Below are positions 2,885 to 13,021 of a stretch of 21,354 nt of DNA, one piece after another; position 1 is the stretch's first letter, and every line of letters starts with the position of its first letter. The notes beneath the pieces were generated by a model. That model ran no database searches. It was not told the origin of the DNA and saw nothing but the letters and a program-made list of their open reading frames with translations. The stretch comes from a virus. Location of the stretch: the IMG/VR virus record IMGVR_UViG_3300045135_000278, positions 1 through 21,354 of that record; one strand, given 5' to 3'. Made by a program: the position numbers and the translations under genes.

Positions 2885-3004
2885 ATGCCGAAGGTAGCAG
2901 GTAAAGAGTATCCATACACTAAGAAAGGCATTGCAATGGCTAAGAACAAGGCCAAAGCAACTGGCAAGAAAGTTAGTTACACTAAAAAGAAAAAGAAGAA
3001 GTAA
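2885..3004 (+). CDS. 39-aa lysine-rich protein
   Basis: This very short gene encodes MPKVAGKEYPYTKKGIAMAK followed by an even more lysine-rich tail ending in six lysines. The stop of the holin-like gene precedes it by one base, and its own stop overlaps the next ATG (TAATG at 3002-3006). The PKVxxKEYPYTKKG opening is a pattern I associate with tiny conserved proteins in marine podoviruses, where no function is established. It is too basic and too short to be an enzyme, so nucleic-acid binding or packing inside the virion is a guess. The conserved-looking start and the stop/start coupling on both sides support a real gene. Confidence 0.7.
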   Translation: MPKVAGKEYPYTKKGIAMAKNKAKATGKKVSYTKKKKKK

Positions 3005-3141
3005 TGGCTACTCCTACAAACAAGGCTCTGTACAATCGTGTGAAGGCTGAGGCTAAAAAGAAATACAAGGTCTGGCCTTCTGCGTATGCGTCAGGTTGGT
3101 TAACCAAGGAGTACAAGAAGCGTGGCGGGAAGTACAAATAA
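3004..3141 (+). CDS. 45-aa basic protein with WPSAYASGW motif
   Basis: The 45-residue product begins at the ATG of a TAATG overlap and is rich in Lys, Tyr and Trp. It contains NKALYNRVKAEAKKKYKVWP and SAYASGWLTKEYKKRGGKY, a recognisable short module of aquatic phage genomes that I believe has no known function. It is the second in a run of five basic mini-genes, and its 3' end overlaps the next gene by 20 bases in a different frame. No membrane segment is visible. Confidence 0.7.
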   Translation: MATPTNKALYNRVKAEAKKKYKVWPSAYASGWLTKEYKKRGGKYK

Positions 3142-3376
3142 ACCGAAAGGTGGTCTGACCAAATGGTTTAAAGAAGACTGGCGCGACTTAAAGACAGGGA
3201 AGGAGTGTGGACGTAAGTCTGCAAAAGGTAAAAGCAAAAGACCTTATCCTTCTTGTCGTCCTAAAGCAGTAGCCGCTAAGATGACTGCCGCTGAGAAGCG
3301 TAGTAGCATCAAACGTAAGACTGGCCCTGCTAAGATTAAACACAAAGTAACTGCATCAGGTAAGCGGAGAAAGTAA
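3122..3376 (+). CDS. 84-aa basic protein, DUF5872-like
   Basis: A GTG at 3122 with AAGGAG ten bases upstream (3106-3111) starts an 84-residue basic protein. It contains KGGLTKWFKEDWRDLKTG, a CGRKSAKG stretch, YPSCRP and a KMTAAEKRSSIKRK helix. I recognise this layout as the DUF5872 type, which occurs in aquatic phages and some large eukaryotic viruses without a known function. The two cysteines (C29 and C44) with many Lys/Arg residues could bind nucleic acid or a metal, though this is only inference. The gene overlaps the preceding one by 20 bases and is joined to the next by TAATG (3374-3378). Confidence 0.72.
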   Translation: MAGSTNKPKGGLTKWFKEDWRDLKTGKECGRKSAKGKSKRPYPSCRPKAVAAKMTAAEKRSSIKRKTGPAKIKHKVTASGKRRK

Positions 3377-3552
3377 TGGCAAAGCCTAAGTTCCCACCAA
3401 ACCCACAACCAAAGATTGACAACCGTAGTATTCCAAAAGGTTATACATATATTCCGGGTGAGACTGTCAACTCAGAGAAAAAAAAGTCTAAGATTGATGA
3501 TGACAAGAACTGGAAGCGGTTACCTAACCAACCAAAAGGATATAGATTCTAA
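3376..3552 (+). CDS. 58-aa proline/lysine-rich protein
   Basis: The product begins MAKPKFPPNPQPKIDNRS, has an IPKGYTYIPGE segment and ends with PNQPKGYRF. The repeated PKGY motif near the middle and the end, with proline-rich surroundings, suggests an extended rather than globular protein. It starts and stops within TAATG overlaps (3374-3378 and 3550-3554), fixing both ends. I do not recognise a family. As one of five consecutive basic mini-genes just before the tail operon, it may be a minor virion or packaging component, but the sequence does not prove this. Confidence 0.65.
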   Translation: MAKPKFPPNPQPKIDNRSIPKGYTYIPGETVNSEKKKSKIDDDKNWKRLPNQPKGYRF

Positions 3553-3839
3553 TGGCTGAAAGAGATCCAAGACTCAAACGAGCAGGTGTATCAGGGTTCA
3601 ACAAACCAAAACGTACTCCTAACCATCCTAAGAAGTCACACGTCGTTGTGGCTAAAGAGGGTGACAAGGTAAAAACAATTCGGTTTGGCGAGCAAGGTGC
3701 AAAGACTGCAGGTAAACCAAAAGCAGGTGAGAGTGATCGCATGAAGAAAAAACGTGCATCATTTAAGGCTCGTCACGGTAAGAACATCGCAAAAGGAAAG
3801 ATGTCAGCGGCATATTGGGCTGATAAAGTTAAGTGGTAG
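3552..3839 (+). CDS. 95-aa basic conserved phage protein
   Basis: This 95-residue Lys/Arg-rich protein opens MAERDPRLKRAGVSGFNKPK and contains SHVVVAKEGDKVKTIRFGEQG and, near the C-terminus, SFKARHGKNIAKGKMSAAYW. The RLKRAGVSG..NKPKRTP..HP.KSH and RH.KNI.KGKMS.AYWA patterns recur in aquatic phages, and related sequences are found in some large viruses; I am not certain of the Pfam number. The function is unestablished. The strong positive charge suggests a nucleic-acid-associated role, possibly in the virion. It is the last gene before the promoter at 3843; its stop lies only four bases upstream of the -35 box, so transcription of the following genes can be boosted independently. Confidence 0.75.
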   Translation: MAERDPRLKRAGVSGFNKPKRTPNHPKKSHVVVAKEGDKVKTIRFGEQGAKTAGKPKAGESDRMKKKRASFKARHGKNIAKGKMSAAYWADKVKW

Positions 3840-3842
3840 GGG

Positions 3843-3871
3843 TTGACAAAATAGCAAAAGTATGCTATAAT
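3843..3871 (+). promoter_or_regulatory. Consensus sigma70-type promoter before the tail operon
   Basis: TTGACA (3843-3848) and TATAAT (3866-3871) are both exact consensus hexamers separated by 17 bp, with TGC directly before the -10 box giving an extended -10. The predicted start near 3878 leaves a leader of about 20 bases, which contains AGGA (3887-3890) seven bases before the ATG at 3898. The 58-bp gap that holds it is one of very few noncoding stretches. It would let host RNA polymerase drive tail and ejection genes. Confidence 0.85.
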
Positions 3872-3897: not shown

Positions 3898-4542
3898 ATG
3901 ACGTATCTTGAAATTGTAAATAATATTCTCAAACGCTTAAGAGAGCGTACAGTCTCGACAGTCAATGAGACTGCGTACTCAACACTCATTGGTGTGTTAG
4001 TCAACGATGCCAAAGAAGAGATTGAGAATGCATGGAATTGGTCTGCGTTGCGTACTACCTTGTCAGCCACTACATCCTCTGGCGTATTTAACTACGAACT
4101 GAACGGTACTCAGAATCGTTTTAAGATTCTTGATGTTGTGAATGACACTAGCAACTTCTTCATGACTTACCGTACAGCGTCTGAGTTTAACAACTGGTTT
4201 TTAAATACAACTCCTACAAGTGGAGCACCTCGTTATTATTCTTTCAATGGAATCTCTGACGATGGAGACACGCTTGTTGACTTGTATCCTATTCCTAATG
4301 GAGCATATGACTTACGCTTTAACGTTGTCATGCCTCAAGCAGAATTATCAGCAGATAGCACAACTCTTTTAATTCCTGCAAAGCCTGTTCAAATGCTTGC
4401 GTATGCAAAGGCTGTTGAGGAACGTGGTGAAGACGGTGGTGCATCAGCTAACTCTGCATACTCTACAGCAGAACGTGTACTGAATGATGCAATTGCGTTT
4501 GATTCAGCTAAACATCCTGAAGAGATTATCTGGAGTTCTTAA
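3898..4542 (+). CDS. Tail tube protein A-like (T7 gp11-type adaptor)
   Basis: This 214-residue protein has the features of podovirus tail tubular protein A, which forms the ring connecting the portal to the tail nozzle. The N-terminus (TYLEIVNNILKRLRERTVST) is followed by an LVNDAKEEIENAWNWSALR helix, a pattern typical of this family. The central beta-rich part includes YRTASEFNNWF and APRYYSF segments, and the C-terminal helix has PVQMLAYAKAVEERGEDGG. Its length is close to T7 gp11 (about 196 residues). The next gene, coupled by TAATG, is tail tube B-like, the usual order. AGGA lies seven bases before the start, downstream of the promoter at 3843. The gp11-type assignment is confident, although sequence identity with T7 itself is probably low. 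Confidence 0.82.
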   Translation: MTYLEIVNNILKRLRERTVSTVNETAYSTLIGVLVNDAKEEIENAWNWSALRTTLSATTSSGVFNYELNGTQNRFKILDVVNDTSNFFMTYRTASEFNNWFLNTTPTSGAPRYYSFNGISDDGDTLVDLYPIPNGAYDLRFNVVMPQAELSADSTTLLIPAKPVQMLAYAKAVEERGEDGGASANSAYSTAERVLNDAIAFDSAKHPEEIIWSS

Positions 4543-7850: not shown

Positions 7851-8884
7851 TGGCAACACGTAATCAAGTATTATCTTTATTTGGTGCAACACCACAGCAA
7901 GTGATGGAGCGTCAGCGTCAACAACAAGCAGAGTTCCTTGCATCTCAGCGTGATGGTTTTCAACAATCTGGTGCGGCTATTGGATTAGGTCTTGCTCGTT
8001 TGTTTGGTGGTAAGTCTCCAGAGATGGAAGCGGCAGAGCAAATGCAAGCGGCTATTGCAGGTGTTGATCCTAATGATCCTGCGGCTCTGCGTGAACTTGC
8101 ACAGACTGTATCTTCTTTTGCACCAGAGCGTGCGCTACAGATTGCGGCATATGCAGGTGAGCTAGAGAAGTCAAAGCAAGGGGCTGTTGTTAACGTACCT
8201 ACAAAGGTGGGACAGAAGCCAATATACAAGCAAGACGCTAAGACTCTTGAGTGGTCTATTGTTGGGTATGAAGATCAATATGAAAACATTCCACATGAGC
8301 GTACTGCTGATGGTTTAGTGCCTCTTGTTGATATCTCCCAGTATGGAGCGAAAGCCGCTACTGATACAGGTACAGAACAGCCTCAAGCTCCGGTACCAGA
8401 TTATATTACTAATGAACAAGGTGTTGTGGTACGTAATCCTGCTAAGACTGGTGAGGCTACTGCTCCGACAACGACTCAAGCTACTCCTGCGGCAACTACT
8501 CAACCTGCTCCAACGCAAGAACCATTTGTGCCACAGCAAGGACGTATCATTACAGACCCTGCAGAGATTGCTCGACTTGAACAAAGCTTGTTAACTCCGG
8601 GAGCACAGGCGGCTCCTCGTATTGCACAGGCTTTACCTAAAGGTGAGATTGAGTACGCTGATCCAGAAGCTTTACAGGAAGCAAGTGATGCGTTACGTGA
8701 TCAGATCGTAGCTCTTGAAAAATCAAACGATAAAAACAAAACGGCTAAGATTAAACGACTCAAGAAGCGTAGAGCAGAAATTCAAAAGCAACGTATCGCA
8801 AGTAGACGAAGAGGATCACCTGCAGATTTACAAACCACTGGACAAGTGAGTGATGTTTTCTCTGGATTTAGGAACGCTAAGTAA
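7850..8884 (+). CDS. Internal virion protein, gp15-position structural protein
   Basis: This 344-residue protein starts with a Gln-rich helical region (TPQQVMERQRQQQAEFLASQ, about 13-32) and a short Gly/Leu-rich segment (GAAIGLGLARLFGG). It has a disordered Ala/Thr/Pro/Gln linker (about 178-235), then a second helical part, and ends with a strongly basic stretch (KIKRLKKRRAEIQKQRIASR, about 304-323). The order after a gp14-like gene and before very large proteins is that of the T7 ejection (core) proteins, so a gp15-like role is likely by position, although T7 gp15 is about twice as long. The basic C-terminus could contact DNA. TAATG overlaps join it to its neighbours at both ends. Confidence 0.6.
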   Translation: MATRNQVLSLFGATPQQVMERQRQQQAEFLASQRDGFQQSGAAIGLGLARLFGGKSPEMEAAEQMQAAIAGVDPNDPAALRELAQTVSSFAPERALQIAAYAGELEKSKQGAVVNVPTKVGQKPIYKQDAKTLEWSIVGYEDQYENIPHERTADGLVPLVDISQYGAKAATDTGTEQPQAPVPDYITNEQGVVVRNPAKTGEATAPTTTQATPAATTQPAPTQEPFVPQQGRIITDPAEIARLEQSLLTPGAQAAPRIAQALPKGEIEYADPEALQEASDALRDQIVALEKSNDKNKTAKIKRLKKRRAEIQKQRIASRRRGSPADLQTTGQVSDVFSGFRNAK

Positions 8885-10875
8885 TGGCCGTTACGGTACG
8901 ACATCCTACCTATGGACTCATAGAGTTTCCTGATGGGTACACAGAAGCGCAGATTAATAATGCACTGATTGATCTTGATGCTCGTGAAGGTGAGCAGTAC
9001 GGTATCGGTGAGACTCTATATCGTGCCGCTGAGCGTGGACTAACAGGCACTGCACGTGGTCTTGAGCAGTCAGCAACTGGAGAGATTGCTCCGGGTCTCA
9101 GTCTGTTTGGCATGAACGATATGACTGACCTTGAGAAAGAGCGTCAGTTGCGTATCATGCTTGAGCAGAATCCTGTTGCGGGCTACAGTGCATTGTTACT
9201 AGGTTCTCTTGCAGATCCAGTCACCCTTCCTTTTGCATTCACTAAGCTAATCAAGTCAGCTAATCTTGTTAAGCAAGGTCTCTCTCGTGGTGCGGCAGGT
9301 GGTGCAGTCGGTGGTGTTCTTGAACCTACATATGAAGAGTTTGGTGACTCCACTGTACTCAACATTATGGCAGGTACAGGTTTAGGTGCAGGCTTAGGTG
9401 CGGCGGCAGGTAAGATAATACAGCGTGTCACAGAAGGCCCATCAGTTAAAGTTGAAGGTGATGAAGACGGTATCATTGTTCCTGAGTCAGTCAAGCGTGA
9501 TGGTAAGCTGAAGGATGAAGTCTATCAGGCTCTTGATGATACAGAGCTTGCGGCTGTTGAGGCTCGTGTCGGTCAGAACTTACAAGAAGCAGGAGCTATT
9601 GAGGATGTACAAAAGTTAGCTCAGCGTACATATAATGAAGTAGCTACTCCTCTTGCACAGTTTGAACCTCCTGCGGCTCGTGCGTTCAATCCTGTTGTCA
9701 AGTTAAAAGAAGAACTAACACCTATTGCGGCCAAAGCATTACCTCGCAGAGAAGTACAAACACTTCAGCGTTCATTAGATTCTGTCAACCAACAACTTGC
9801 TAAAGCACAGCAGATTGCAGGAGCACGTAAGACTGTTGCGGCTAAAGCAAGAGCAGAAGAAACTGTAGCTAAGATACAAGCAACACAACAGAAGATTGCA
9901 GGTAAGTTAGCTGAAGCGCAAGAGGCCGCAAGAGCACAGCGTTATATTAATACCATTGACTCAGGACGTATCGAGCGTTTACCTTCAGCACAGAAATCTA
10001 GGCTTGCAGAACTATCACAAGAAGCAGGTGCTGATCTGAGGGCAGTTAATATTGCTGTACGTCAAGAAGCTCAGAAGTTACCAGAGCCTTTTGAAGCACA
10101 GTTAAATGAACTGAACTCTCGTTTAAATTACGTACTCTCTACACCTGAGACTAAACCTCCTCGTGTGCCACTAGGTCTTGATCCTCTTGCGGGTGTAGGC
10201 TCAACAGGTGCTCGCCCAGGTGGACGCTTTGAAGCTACCTCTCCAGATGCTCCGGGTACAGAAGCAGTACAGCGTGCATTCACTGGCCGTACAGTACCAG
10301 AGCAAGAGCGTTTCTCTGTAAGTAGAACTGAAGAAGGTGTTGTTAAAGAACCTACTCAGATTGTGGGTGAGACAGCGGCAGAGCGTAACTTCCATTCTCG
10401 TTTACAGGCTGAGTCTGCTGATCAGTTAGCTCGTTTACGTGATGAAACTATTCGTGGACGGTACACATGGAGTAATGTTGTTGATGGTGCTATTGCTGTT
10501 GAGAACAGAATCCTTGAAGACTACGATGATCTTGCGTCTTGGTTAGCAGAGAATGAACAGAACATCCTCAAGGCTGATGAGTTAGAAGCGATCACACCTT
10601 TAATCCAAGAAGCACAACAGCGTATGTTTGATTCACGTAAGATTCTTAATGCTTTAATGCGTGAAGGTAGACTCGATAGTGAAGAAGGTGTCCGAGTCAT
10701 GCAAGATATTCAATATTATAATTACATTAGTAACGCAGGTTACATTGCACAGAAGACAAAGATTTCTAACGCAATGACACAGCTACGTAGAATGCGTCAC
10801 TTTATTCAAATACAAGAAGGGCAACTGGAGCGTGGTGAAGCAATCAATGCGGCAATGTTTGGAGTGAAGTGCTAA
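8884..10875 (+). CDS. Large internal virion/ejection protein, first half
   Basis: This 663-residue protein starts with VRHPTYGLIEFPDGYTEAQI (about 5-24), an EFPDG-type opening found in large ejection proteins of marine podoviruses. Residues 137-178 are Gly/Ala-rich and hydrophobic (RGAAGGAVGGVLEP and AGTGLGAGLGAAAGKI), suitable for membrane insertion. Residues 275-350 form a long Gln/Ala/Lys-rich probable coiled coil, followed by a Pro-rich linker near 420-470 and a helical C-terminus. I do not see the lytic transglycosylase domain that opens T7 gp16. Its size plus that of the next gene (708) is close to the 1318 residues of gp16, suggesting the giant core protein is divided here. It ends in TAATG (10873-10877) overlapping the next start. 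Confidence 0.65.
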   Translation: MAVTVRHPTYGLIEFPDGYTEAQINNALIDLDAREGEQYGIGETLYRAAERGLTGTARGLEQSATGEIAPGLSLFGMNDMTDLEKERQLRIMLEQNPVAGYSALLLGSLADPVTLPFAFTKLIKSANLVKQGLSRGAAGGAVGGVLEPTYEEFGDSTVLNIMAGTGLGAGLGAAAGKIIQRVTEGPSVKVEGDEDGIIVPESVKRDGKLKDEVYQALDDTELAAVEARVGQNLQEAGAIEDVQKLAQRTYNEVATPLAQFEPPAARAFNPVVKLKEELTPIAAKALPRREVQTLQRSLDSVNQQLAKAQQIAGARKTVAAKARAEETVAKIQATQQKIAGKLAEAQEAARAQRYINTIDSGRIERLPSAQKSRLAELSQEAGADLRAVNIAVRQEAQKLPEPFEAQLNELNSRLNYVLSTPETKPPRVPLGLDPLAGVGSTGARPGGRFEATSPDAPGTEAVQRAFTGRTVPEQERFSVSRTEEGVVKEPTQIVGETAAERNFHSRLQAESADQLARLRDETIRGRYTWSNVVDGAIAVENRILEDYDDLASWLAENEQNILKADELEAITPLIQEAQQRMFDSRKILNALMREGRLDSEEGVRVMQDIQYYNYISNAGYIAQKTKISNAMTQLRRMRHFIQIQEGQLERGEAINAAMFGVKC

Positions 10876-13001
10876 TGGGTCAATACTTTTCAGATAACTG
10901 TTTAACAAAGGTTCTACCAGAAATAGCAAACTCAATGCCTGCAAATACTCTGTCTCGTGAGGCTGAAGCTCTTGCACTTGCAGATGCAATTGGTGAGATT
11001 GGTAAGCGTAAGACTATTGCTGATTATACACTTGAGGCAGTTATCAATGGTTACCTTTCTGGTACGATGACTCCGATTGCTAACGCATTATCTATTGCGG
11101 TGCAGAATATGTTGCGTCCTACTGTGTACGCAATTGGTGCGCTCACTGATGCGACTAAACTAACCAAAGGTGATCGTACATTAGGTGAAGCATACGCTAT
11201 GTTGCAAGCCGCAACAGAAGGATTCGTAGCTGACTTACATTACTTCCGCACTGGTTGGACTCGTGGGTATCCGATTGACGTACAGGCAACAGTTAAAGAA
11301 CTCGCGGCAGGAACAGGACGTACAGTACCAGAAGTTAAAGCCTCAATCTCTCAAGCATACGCAAGACGTAGTGCATTAGATGAAGGGCTGCAGGAAGGTA
11401 CTCCTGAGTTTACTGCTCGTGTTGATGCGTTGTCAGAGTTTGAGCCTACACCAGAGCAGATCAACCAGTATGTACATGAAGGGTACGACTACGTTCGTAA
11501 AGCAATCCCGGGTAAAGGTGGTGAGATTGTTCGTATCCCAACCAAGCTGACTGTTGCGATTGATGAGTATGGTAAGGCTCGTTTCCGTAGACAGAAGATT
11601 GCACAGATGGCGGCTATCAAGGCTCGTCAGGAAGCAGGTAATGATGATGTACGTTATCGTGAACTACTTGACAGCTACAAGAAAGAAGCCTCAGTAATCA
11701 CTAATGACTTTGGTGAGATGGAACGTAGACTAGGTAAGATGTTCGGAGCTAGTGAGAAAGACTGGCTACCGTACACAACAGTACGAGAGTTTGCTCTTGA
11801 CAATACATTCCAGTCTCGTCTCTATGGATTACCTGCCAACATTCAGAAGCTCAAGAATGAAGCAGGAGATGATGCGGCAGGTGAAGCGAGACGTTTGCTA
11901 CTAGGTACAATGGTTCCCTTTGTCAAGACTCCTTGGAACATTCTCAAGGAAGGTGTGACATACGTACCCGGTTTACCTTTTGCATTCAGACCAAAGTATT
12001 CAGAAGGTGGTGTACCAGTCAAGATGGATAACGATGAGTTGATTCCTCGTCAGATTCTAGGACTTGGTATGTTTGCAGGGATCATGTCGTTGTATGCGGC
12101 AGGGCGTGTGACAGGTGCTCCACGTGATGGACAAGAAGCGCAGTCATGGAAGGATGAAGGTAAGTCTGCGTTTGCGATTAAGATCGGAGACACATGGATT
12201 CCTTATCAGCGTATTGAGCCTATCGCAACAGCCTTTGGTTTAGCAGGTGACTTACAGCGAGCCATTGAAGATTACAATGCTGACAAGAACCCAGACAAGA
12301 AGTTCTATGGTGACTTGATCACTGACATTATGATTGGTCTCAAGTATCACATTCTGTCTAAGTCATTCATGGAAGGCTTCTCGTTGGTGCTTGAAGGTGT
12401 CACAGATCCTGCTCGTGTTGATGAGAAGATTGCATCTCAATTACTACGTCCACTGACTCCTGCGATTGTCAACGAGGCGGCACGTATCCTTGATCCATAT
12501 GAGCGTCAGGCCACAACACCAATCGAGAAACTACAACAACGTGTGCCATTCTTGCGTGAGTCATTACCACAAGAGTATGGTCTATATGGTGGGCCGCGAG
12601 AGACCAATCGTATTCAAGCAATCACAGGCTTTGGTATCATCTCTGACAGCGAACGCTCACCAGTGCAGATGGAACTCTCTCGATTGAACTACACGAAAGG
12701 TAGGGTGGGTGATAAGATCAAAGGACTTGACATGACTAACGAACAGATTGCGCGTTATCGTCAGTTGAGTGCAGAGATGGTGACACCTGCGTTGACTGGA
12801 CTGGTTGAGTCAGATAGTTATCAACAGTTACCAGACTCTCGTAAGAAAGTAGTCCTTGATAATGTGATCGATAAGATGAAGAAATCTGCAGGCAAGAGAA
12901 TGTTTGCTGAGCTATACTCAACAGACCCAGACTTTGCAAGAAGATTCTACAATAAGATTATCCTTGAGAAAGGATTAGAAGACTCAGTAGAGTTACAATA
13001 A
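10875..13001 (+). CDS. Large internal virion/ejection protein, second half
   Basis: I choose the ATG at 10875 (708 residues) because it completes the TAATG overlap used throughout this arm; a GTG two codons upstream is possible. The N-terminal third is helical with hydrophobic YLSGTMTPIANALSIAVQN (about 55-75), a pattern seen in giant ejection and polyvalent phage proteins. Further on are FVKTPWNILKEGVTYVPG, a hydrophobic segment with ILGLGMFAGIMSLYAAG (about 390-410) and WIPYQRIEPIATAFGLAGD, an arrangement also familiar from such proteins. No enzymatic motif is evident. It is the last gene of the left arm; its stop codon (12999-13001) merges with the A-tract of the convergent terminator. A gp16-like role in DNA ejection is inferred from context. 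Confidence 0.65.
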   Translation: MGQYFSDNCLTKVLPEIANSMPANTLSREAEALALADAIGEIGKRKTIADYTLEAVINGYLSGTMTPIANALSIAVQNMLRPTVYAIGALTDATKLTKGDRTLGEAYAMLQAATEGFVADLHYFRTGWTRGYPIDVQATVKELAAGTGRTVPEVKASISQAYARRSALDEGLQEGTPEFTARVDALSEFEPTPEQINQYVHEGYDYVRKAIPGKGGEIVRIPTKLTVAIDEYGKARFRRQKIAQMAAIKARQEAGNDDVRYRELLDSYKKEASVITNDFGEMERRLGKMFGASEKDWLPYTTVREFALDNTFQSRLYGLPANIQKLKNEAGDDAAGEARRLLLGTMVPFVKTPWNILKEGVTYVPGLPFAFRPKYSEGGVPVKMDNDELIPRQILGLGMFAGIMSLYAAGRVTGAPRDGQEAQSWKDEGKSAFAIKIGDTWIPYQRIEPIATAFGLAGDLQRAIEDYNADKNPDKKFYGDLITDIMIGLKYHILSKSFMEGFSLVLEGVTDPARVDEKIASQLLRPLTPAIVNEAARILDPYERQATTPIEKLQQRVPFLRESLPQEYGLYGGPRETNRIQAITGFGIISDSERSPVQMELSRLNYTKGRVGDKIKGLDMTNEQIARYRQLSAEMVTPALTGLVESDSYQQLPDSRKKVVLDNVIDKMKKSAGKRMFAELYSTDPDFARRFYNKIILEKGLEDSVELQ

Positions 13002-13021
13002 AAAAGCCCCCTTTCGGGGGC
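13000..13021 (-). terminator. Rho-independent terminator of the minus-strand operon
   Basis: GCCCCC (13006-13011) pairs with GGGGGC (13016-13021) around a four-base loop. Read on the minus strand the loop is GAAA and the stem is followed by six T residues (13005-13000), a textbook intrinsic terminator 19 bases after the last minus-strand gene. On the plus strand the hairpin is preceded by A residues but followed by AAGCCACTGG, so it lacks a U-tract and should terminate plus-strand transcripts less well. Confidence 0.9.

Follow-up and report, generated by a model that had tools for sequence, protein, structure and literature searches.

Small basic genes m2, m3 and m5 of tailed phages: a candidate head-assembly module

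Why are five very small and strongly basic proteins encoded one after another in a viral genome, and do they have a role in common? The question is raised by the record of an aquatic virus of bacteria, 21,354 bases long (IMG/VR record IMGVR_UViG_3300045135_000278), the whole of which is referred to here as the window. Five open reading frames (m1 to m5; Table 1) lie in tandem on the + strand and span positions 2885–3839. The original prediction had described five basic, chained mini-genes here, and both the coordinates and the lengths proved to be exact. The isoelectric points of m1 to m5 are 10.4, 10.2, 11.0, 10.0 and 10.9, and their net charge per 100 residues ranges from +14 to +36, whereas that of all neighbouring + strand genes is between -7 and +2. 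Overlaps of a single nucleotide (TAATG) join m1 to m2, m3 to m4 and m4 to m5; m2 and m3 overlap by 20 nucleotides.

Table 1. The five small genes and the features that follow them (positions of the window)
Feature	Coordinates	Strand	Length (codons, aa)	Description
m1	2885..3004	+	39	Lys-rich; phrog_33179; optional member
m2	3004..3141	+	45	N-terminal half of DUF5872 (PF19197 positions 1-39)
m3	3122..3376	+	84	C-terminal half of DUF5872 (positions 47-112); phrog_23735
m4	3376..3552	+	58	Basic; lineage-specific
m5	3552..3839	+	95	Tlr6F/DUF5754-superfamily; phrog_7595
Promoter	3843..3871	+		Extended -10 sigma-70-type (TTGACA-17-TATAAT); 12/12 match
SU10-type head-tail adaptor	3898..4542	+		PF24175, 5.2e-14; downstream of the cluster

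When these genes are compared with their relatives by raw nucleotide BLAST (its gap counts left out), the substitutions fall mostly at the third position of the codon. The counts at positions 1, 2 and 3 are 417, 447 and 1702 for m2; 877, 655 and 3331 for m3; and 1509, 1268 and 6833 for m5. The pattern for m1 and m4 is likewise of the coding type, from few sequences. Because the substitutions pile up at codon position 3, all five look like real coding genes.

The cluster had been placed between lysis and tail genes. Downstream, this agrees with the SU10-type adaptor; upstream, there is only a weak holin-like match (1890–2333, E 0.001). The cluster is closed by the only promoter of its kind within the window, in which TG precedes the -10 element and which stands before the adaptor gene. 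A promoter matching at 11 or more of the 12 positions is present in 22 of 25 m5–adaptor loci (the window itself and one or more duplicated contigs are counted), and since the spacer sequence differs among the loci, the promoter looks selected. Elsewhere in the window, the ORFs at 8884–10875 (663 aa) and 10869–13001 (710 aa) overlap, and the product of the latter matches the late part of phrog_6651, an internal virion protein family of 1,375 positions; the pair could represent a single long protein, divided either by a frameshift or by a genuine gene break. A terminator-like hairpin on the - strand (13006–13021; GCCCCCGAAAGGGGGC, then a run of T) separates the + strand structural genes from the - strand replication genes.

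What families do the proteins belong to? A single DUF5872-like gene had been predicted, and there are two. In a Pfam profile search against PF19197, which has 116 positions, m2 scores 48.2 bits (cut-off 27.5) over positions 1–39, and m3 scores 26.3 bits, just below the cut-off, over positions 47–112; a relative of m3, P-SCSP2 gp22, passes the cut-off with 53.3 bits. The residues WF, W, C29 and C45 are invariant in m3. The GTG start of m3 lies inside m2, with AAGGAG upstream of it, and in each of the 172 pairs of relatives that were scored, m2 and m3 each occupy an open frame of their own. As there are two separate ORFs, m2–m3 is best described as a split variant and not as a plain member of DUF5872. 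The simplest reading is that each half is a protein in its own right and that the two overlapping genes are probably translationally coupled. The predicted structure of m3 is of low confidence (pLDDT 65) and was left out of the argument.

The halves could also be joined in one DUF5872 protein by a programmed +1 frameshift at the stop codon of m2, given that m3 is in the +1 frame in 88 of 88 close relatives and that the lengths of the linker differ by multiples of three. However, an ATG, GTG or TTG start lies inside the overlap in all 70 distinct junctions, the codon preceding the m2 stop is variable (AAG, GAG, GCC, GGC), and in distant relatives m3 is in the +2 frame (36 cases) or in frame 0 (two cases). 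It is for these reasons that two proteins are preferred; the starts in every overlap and the other frames in distant relatives rule out the frameshift for practical purposes, leaving it highly improbable.

The placement of m5 is by transitive evidence. On its own, m5 scores 12.8 bits against DUF5754 (PF19058; cut-off 27.4, E 0.13). Five of 12 aligned homologs of m5 match DUF5754 at E values up to 1, the best being that of Phage NCTB (43.8 bits, 2.5e-11; CRP-235, 2e-4), and those that match align with m5 along its full length. By way of these homologs, m5 is assigned to the Tlr6F/DUF5754 superfamily. Its predicted fold is a beta hairpin with two helices, and the sequence ends in SFKARH...SAAYWADKVKW. 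A structure search with this model returned the Tunisvirus protein V9SE36 (prob 0.99, E 0.009, TM 0.58), an XkdF protein, ORF125 of ICP1 and a protein of 1,393 residues, the same length as the portal protein of CL131. A fold search of the PDB gave no significant match to the m5 model, and the solved structures searched by sequence gave no convincing one. Nearly all polinton-like viruses have a conserved Tlr6F, as do several virophages, many giant viruses and some phages, and it was described as having no similarity to domains of known structure or function (PMC4642659). One giant-virus genome lists DUF5872 and DUF5754 proteins together (PMC12085832).

Another family, DUF6321 (PF19846), can hold the place of m5 beside m2–m3. 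It is likewise basic and has a similar S-[FY]-C-A-R motif, but its C-terminus contains cysteine (W-N/K-C) where m5 has AAYW...W. The DUF6321 profile does not match m5 and matches only two of 12 m5 homologs (best 0.023), and a comparison of the two profiles gave a prob of 18.7. At positions 2333–2581 of locus L129, a homolog of m5 with a DUF6321-like motif (RKKSYCARSGG) matches both profiles, and is a possible intermediate between the two families. A search of a limited literature collection found no paper giving DUF5872 or DUF6321 a function.

Do the genes travel together? Of 181 loci with m3, 179 also have m2, 125 have m5 and 42 have DUF6321; no locus has both m5 and DUF6321. The m3–m5 pairs are all on the same strand, at a median distance of 676 bases. 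Whole records that carry m3 number 35; m2 was found in 34 of them, and each of the 35 has exactly one of m5 (21 records) or DUF6321 (14 records). In one record (G008), a weak DUF6321 match falls on the m5 ORF itself. In 32 of the 35, m5 or DUF6321 lies within 1.3 kb of m3, compared with 2.2 expected from uniform random placement, although these records are partly related and the counts overstate their independence. The set with m3 covers phages of Roseobacter, SAR11 and cyanobacteria as well as freshwater phages, with differing gene orders. Among 84,980 prokaryote species genomes, m3 has two matches, both on metagenome-assembled contigs that also have m2 plus either m5 or DUF6321, and m3 appears to be essentially confined to viruses.

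The dependence is one-sided. A requirement of m5 for m2–m3 was considered and rejected, as in 71 of 80 loci found through m5 the flank lacks both m2 and m3; an m3 match is absent from the whole genomes of HMO-2011, SIO1, P12053L and ICP1. By these sequence counts, m5 is frequent without m2–m3. Nor is there a fixed set of five genes: m1 occurs in 28 of the 181 m3 loci and m4 in four loci (first survey), neither has a match among named phages, and both are considered optional. The predicted conserved set with a joint role is strongly supported, and across unrelated phages, for m2, m3 and m5; for m1 and m4 it finds no support. In public records, m3 of CRP-207 and CRP-2 and m5 of C72C1 and SIO1 (L163 4691–4920, L174 2299–2538, L164 4609–4878 and L171 5001–5213) go unannotated, are annotated incompletely or are covered by another ORF.

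In some relatives, the same domains are parts of larger proteins. In T4-like cyanophages, parts resembling m3, m2 and DUF6321 are fused in one protein (T4-GC 119), the gene for which adjoins the terminase genes or sits between them. The label of this protein varies by record, between hypothetical and structural: in S-E7 and RN05-S it is called a structural protein (basis unstated in the records), and in S-SM1, for which a virion proteome has been published, it is labelled hypothetical and other proteins are labelled structural. An m5 domain lies within the portal protein of CL131 (residues 527–604), between the portal and minor-head regions. This portal protein was detected by LC-MS/MS in purified virions (PMC6293099), and is the only relative reported from a virion. 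In gp125 of the Vibrio phage ICP1, an XkdF-type protease (36–160) is followed by a C-terminal m5 domain (184–261; m5 match 1.7e-16), and in gp101 of Aeromonas phage 2L372X the m5 domain is N-terminal (71–150; 5.2e-18) and the protease follows (176–287). Both of these loci contain portal, decoration and coat genes. Since the order of the domains is reversed between the two phages, m5 and the protease may have been joined, or their arrangement changed, on more than one occasion. The family phrog_1530 (seen with L327 and L331) is named "DNA methyltransferase"; the proteins that match it consist of an XkdF-type protease and an m5 domain, and the name looks like a mislabel.

In P-SCSP2, P-SCSP1u, DSL-LC04, CRP-2, CRP-207, CRP-7 and MED4-184, the small genes adjoin scaffold, coat, adaptor or terminase/portal genes. 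In SIO1, P12053L, HTVC106P and HTVC203P, they are near lysis or early genes and not near head genes.

We lean towards reading m2, m3 and m5 as a head-assembly module of small proteins, most likely acting inside the procapsid. Among the roles that the original prediction offered, head assembly is the best fit, because capsid proteases, a portal protein and the product of a gene flanked by terminase genes all contain the same domains. Fusions and gene neighbourhoods speak for the link to the head; that the proteins enter the procapsid, what they bind there and when they are made is what we infer. According to this proposal, m2 and m3, as the halves of DUF5872, would probably act together, with m5 as the Tlr6F-type domain and DUF6321 taking its place in other phages. 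The three proteins would be made late and would then enter the procapsid, where, during packaging and maturation, their positive charge could keep either the genome or the acidic interior of scaffold and coat in position around the portal.

The same charge, unlike that of all neighbours, could mean instead that the proteins, if packaged, neutralise the charge of the DNA in the manner of protamines or internal head proteins, with no part in the assembly of the shell. That giant viruses and polinton-like viruses have related families (PMC4642659, PMC12085832) is consistent with such genome condensation. However, fusions to a capsid protease and a portal point to assembly and not to bulk packing, no match to known DNA-binding families was found in Pfam or the PDB, and the fused protein of S-SM1 bears no virion protein label, so that we regard condensation as unlikely. 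Less probable again is a host-directed role, in which small late proteins would bind host nucleic acid or ribosomes and aid lysis or takeover, their clustering reflecting co-expression only. Small, basic proteins would suit this role, as would neighbours of the lysis type (lysozyme in CRP-207; M15 peptidase in HTVC023P, HTVC106P and HTVC203P). Yet the genes are common to phages of alphaproteobacteria, SAR11, cyanobacteria and Vibrio, and with hosts so diverse and families related to those in viruses of eukaryotes, a host-specific target is improbable; moreover, the fusion partners are head proteins and not host-interaction proteins. The anti-host function once suggested for the cluster finds no support here.

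If the preferred head-assembly reading is correct, what would it mean? The fusions of Tlr6F to capsid proteases and to a virion portal, together with the exchange of m5 for DUF6321 next to a split DUF5872, would point to a single function, open to testing, for three families that are so far unexplained. For the named phages CRP-2, CRP-207, P-SCSP2, HTVC023P and ICP1, the record or the name gives a host strain, and therefore a laboratory test is feasible. A three-gene set that travels in this way suggests a route to the function of several widespread unexplained viral proteins. A wider idea, doubtful but worth stating, is that DUF5872, Tlr6F and DUF6321 are one portable head-interior system used across unrelated capsid builds; if so, it would span tailed phages as well as giant viruses, virophages and polinton-like viruses, with a part in packaging the genome or in maturation in each of the two virus realms.

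The genes of the window can be compared with several known systems. Tlr6F/DUF5754 proteins occur in polinton-like viruses, virophages, giant viruses and some phages, whereas the m5 of the window itself scores below the family cut-off. DUF5872 is one protein, whereas here it is two overlapping genes. The T4-GC 119 protein is several hundred residues long with its parts in the order m3–m2–DUF6321, whereas the genes of the window are separate. The XkdF-type head maturation protease (PF14550) of ICP1 and 2L372X bears an m5-type domain, whereas the m5 of the window stands alone, with no PF14550 protease match in its 95 residues. In HK97-type proteases, parts other than the catalytic ones matter for encapsidation, and these non-catalytic parts are the closest analogy for an accessory m5 domain on a capsid protease.
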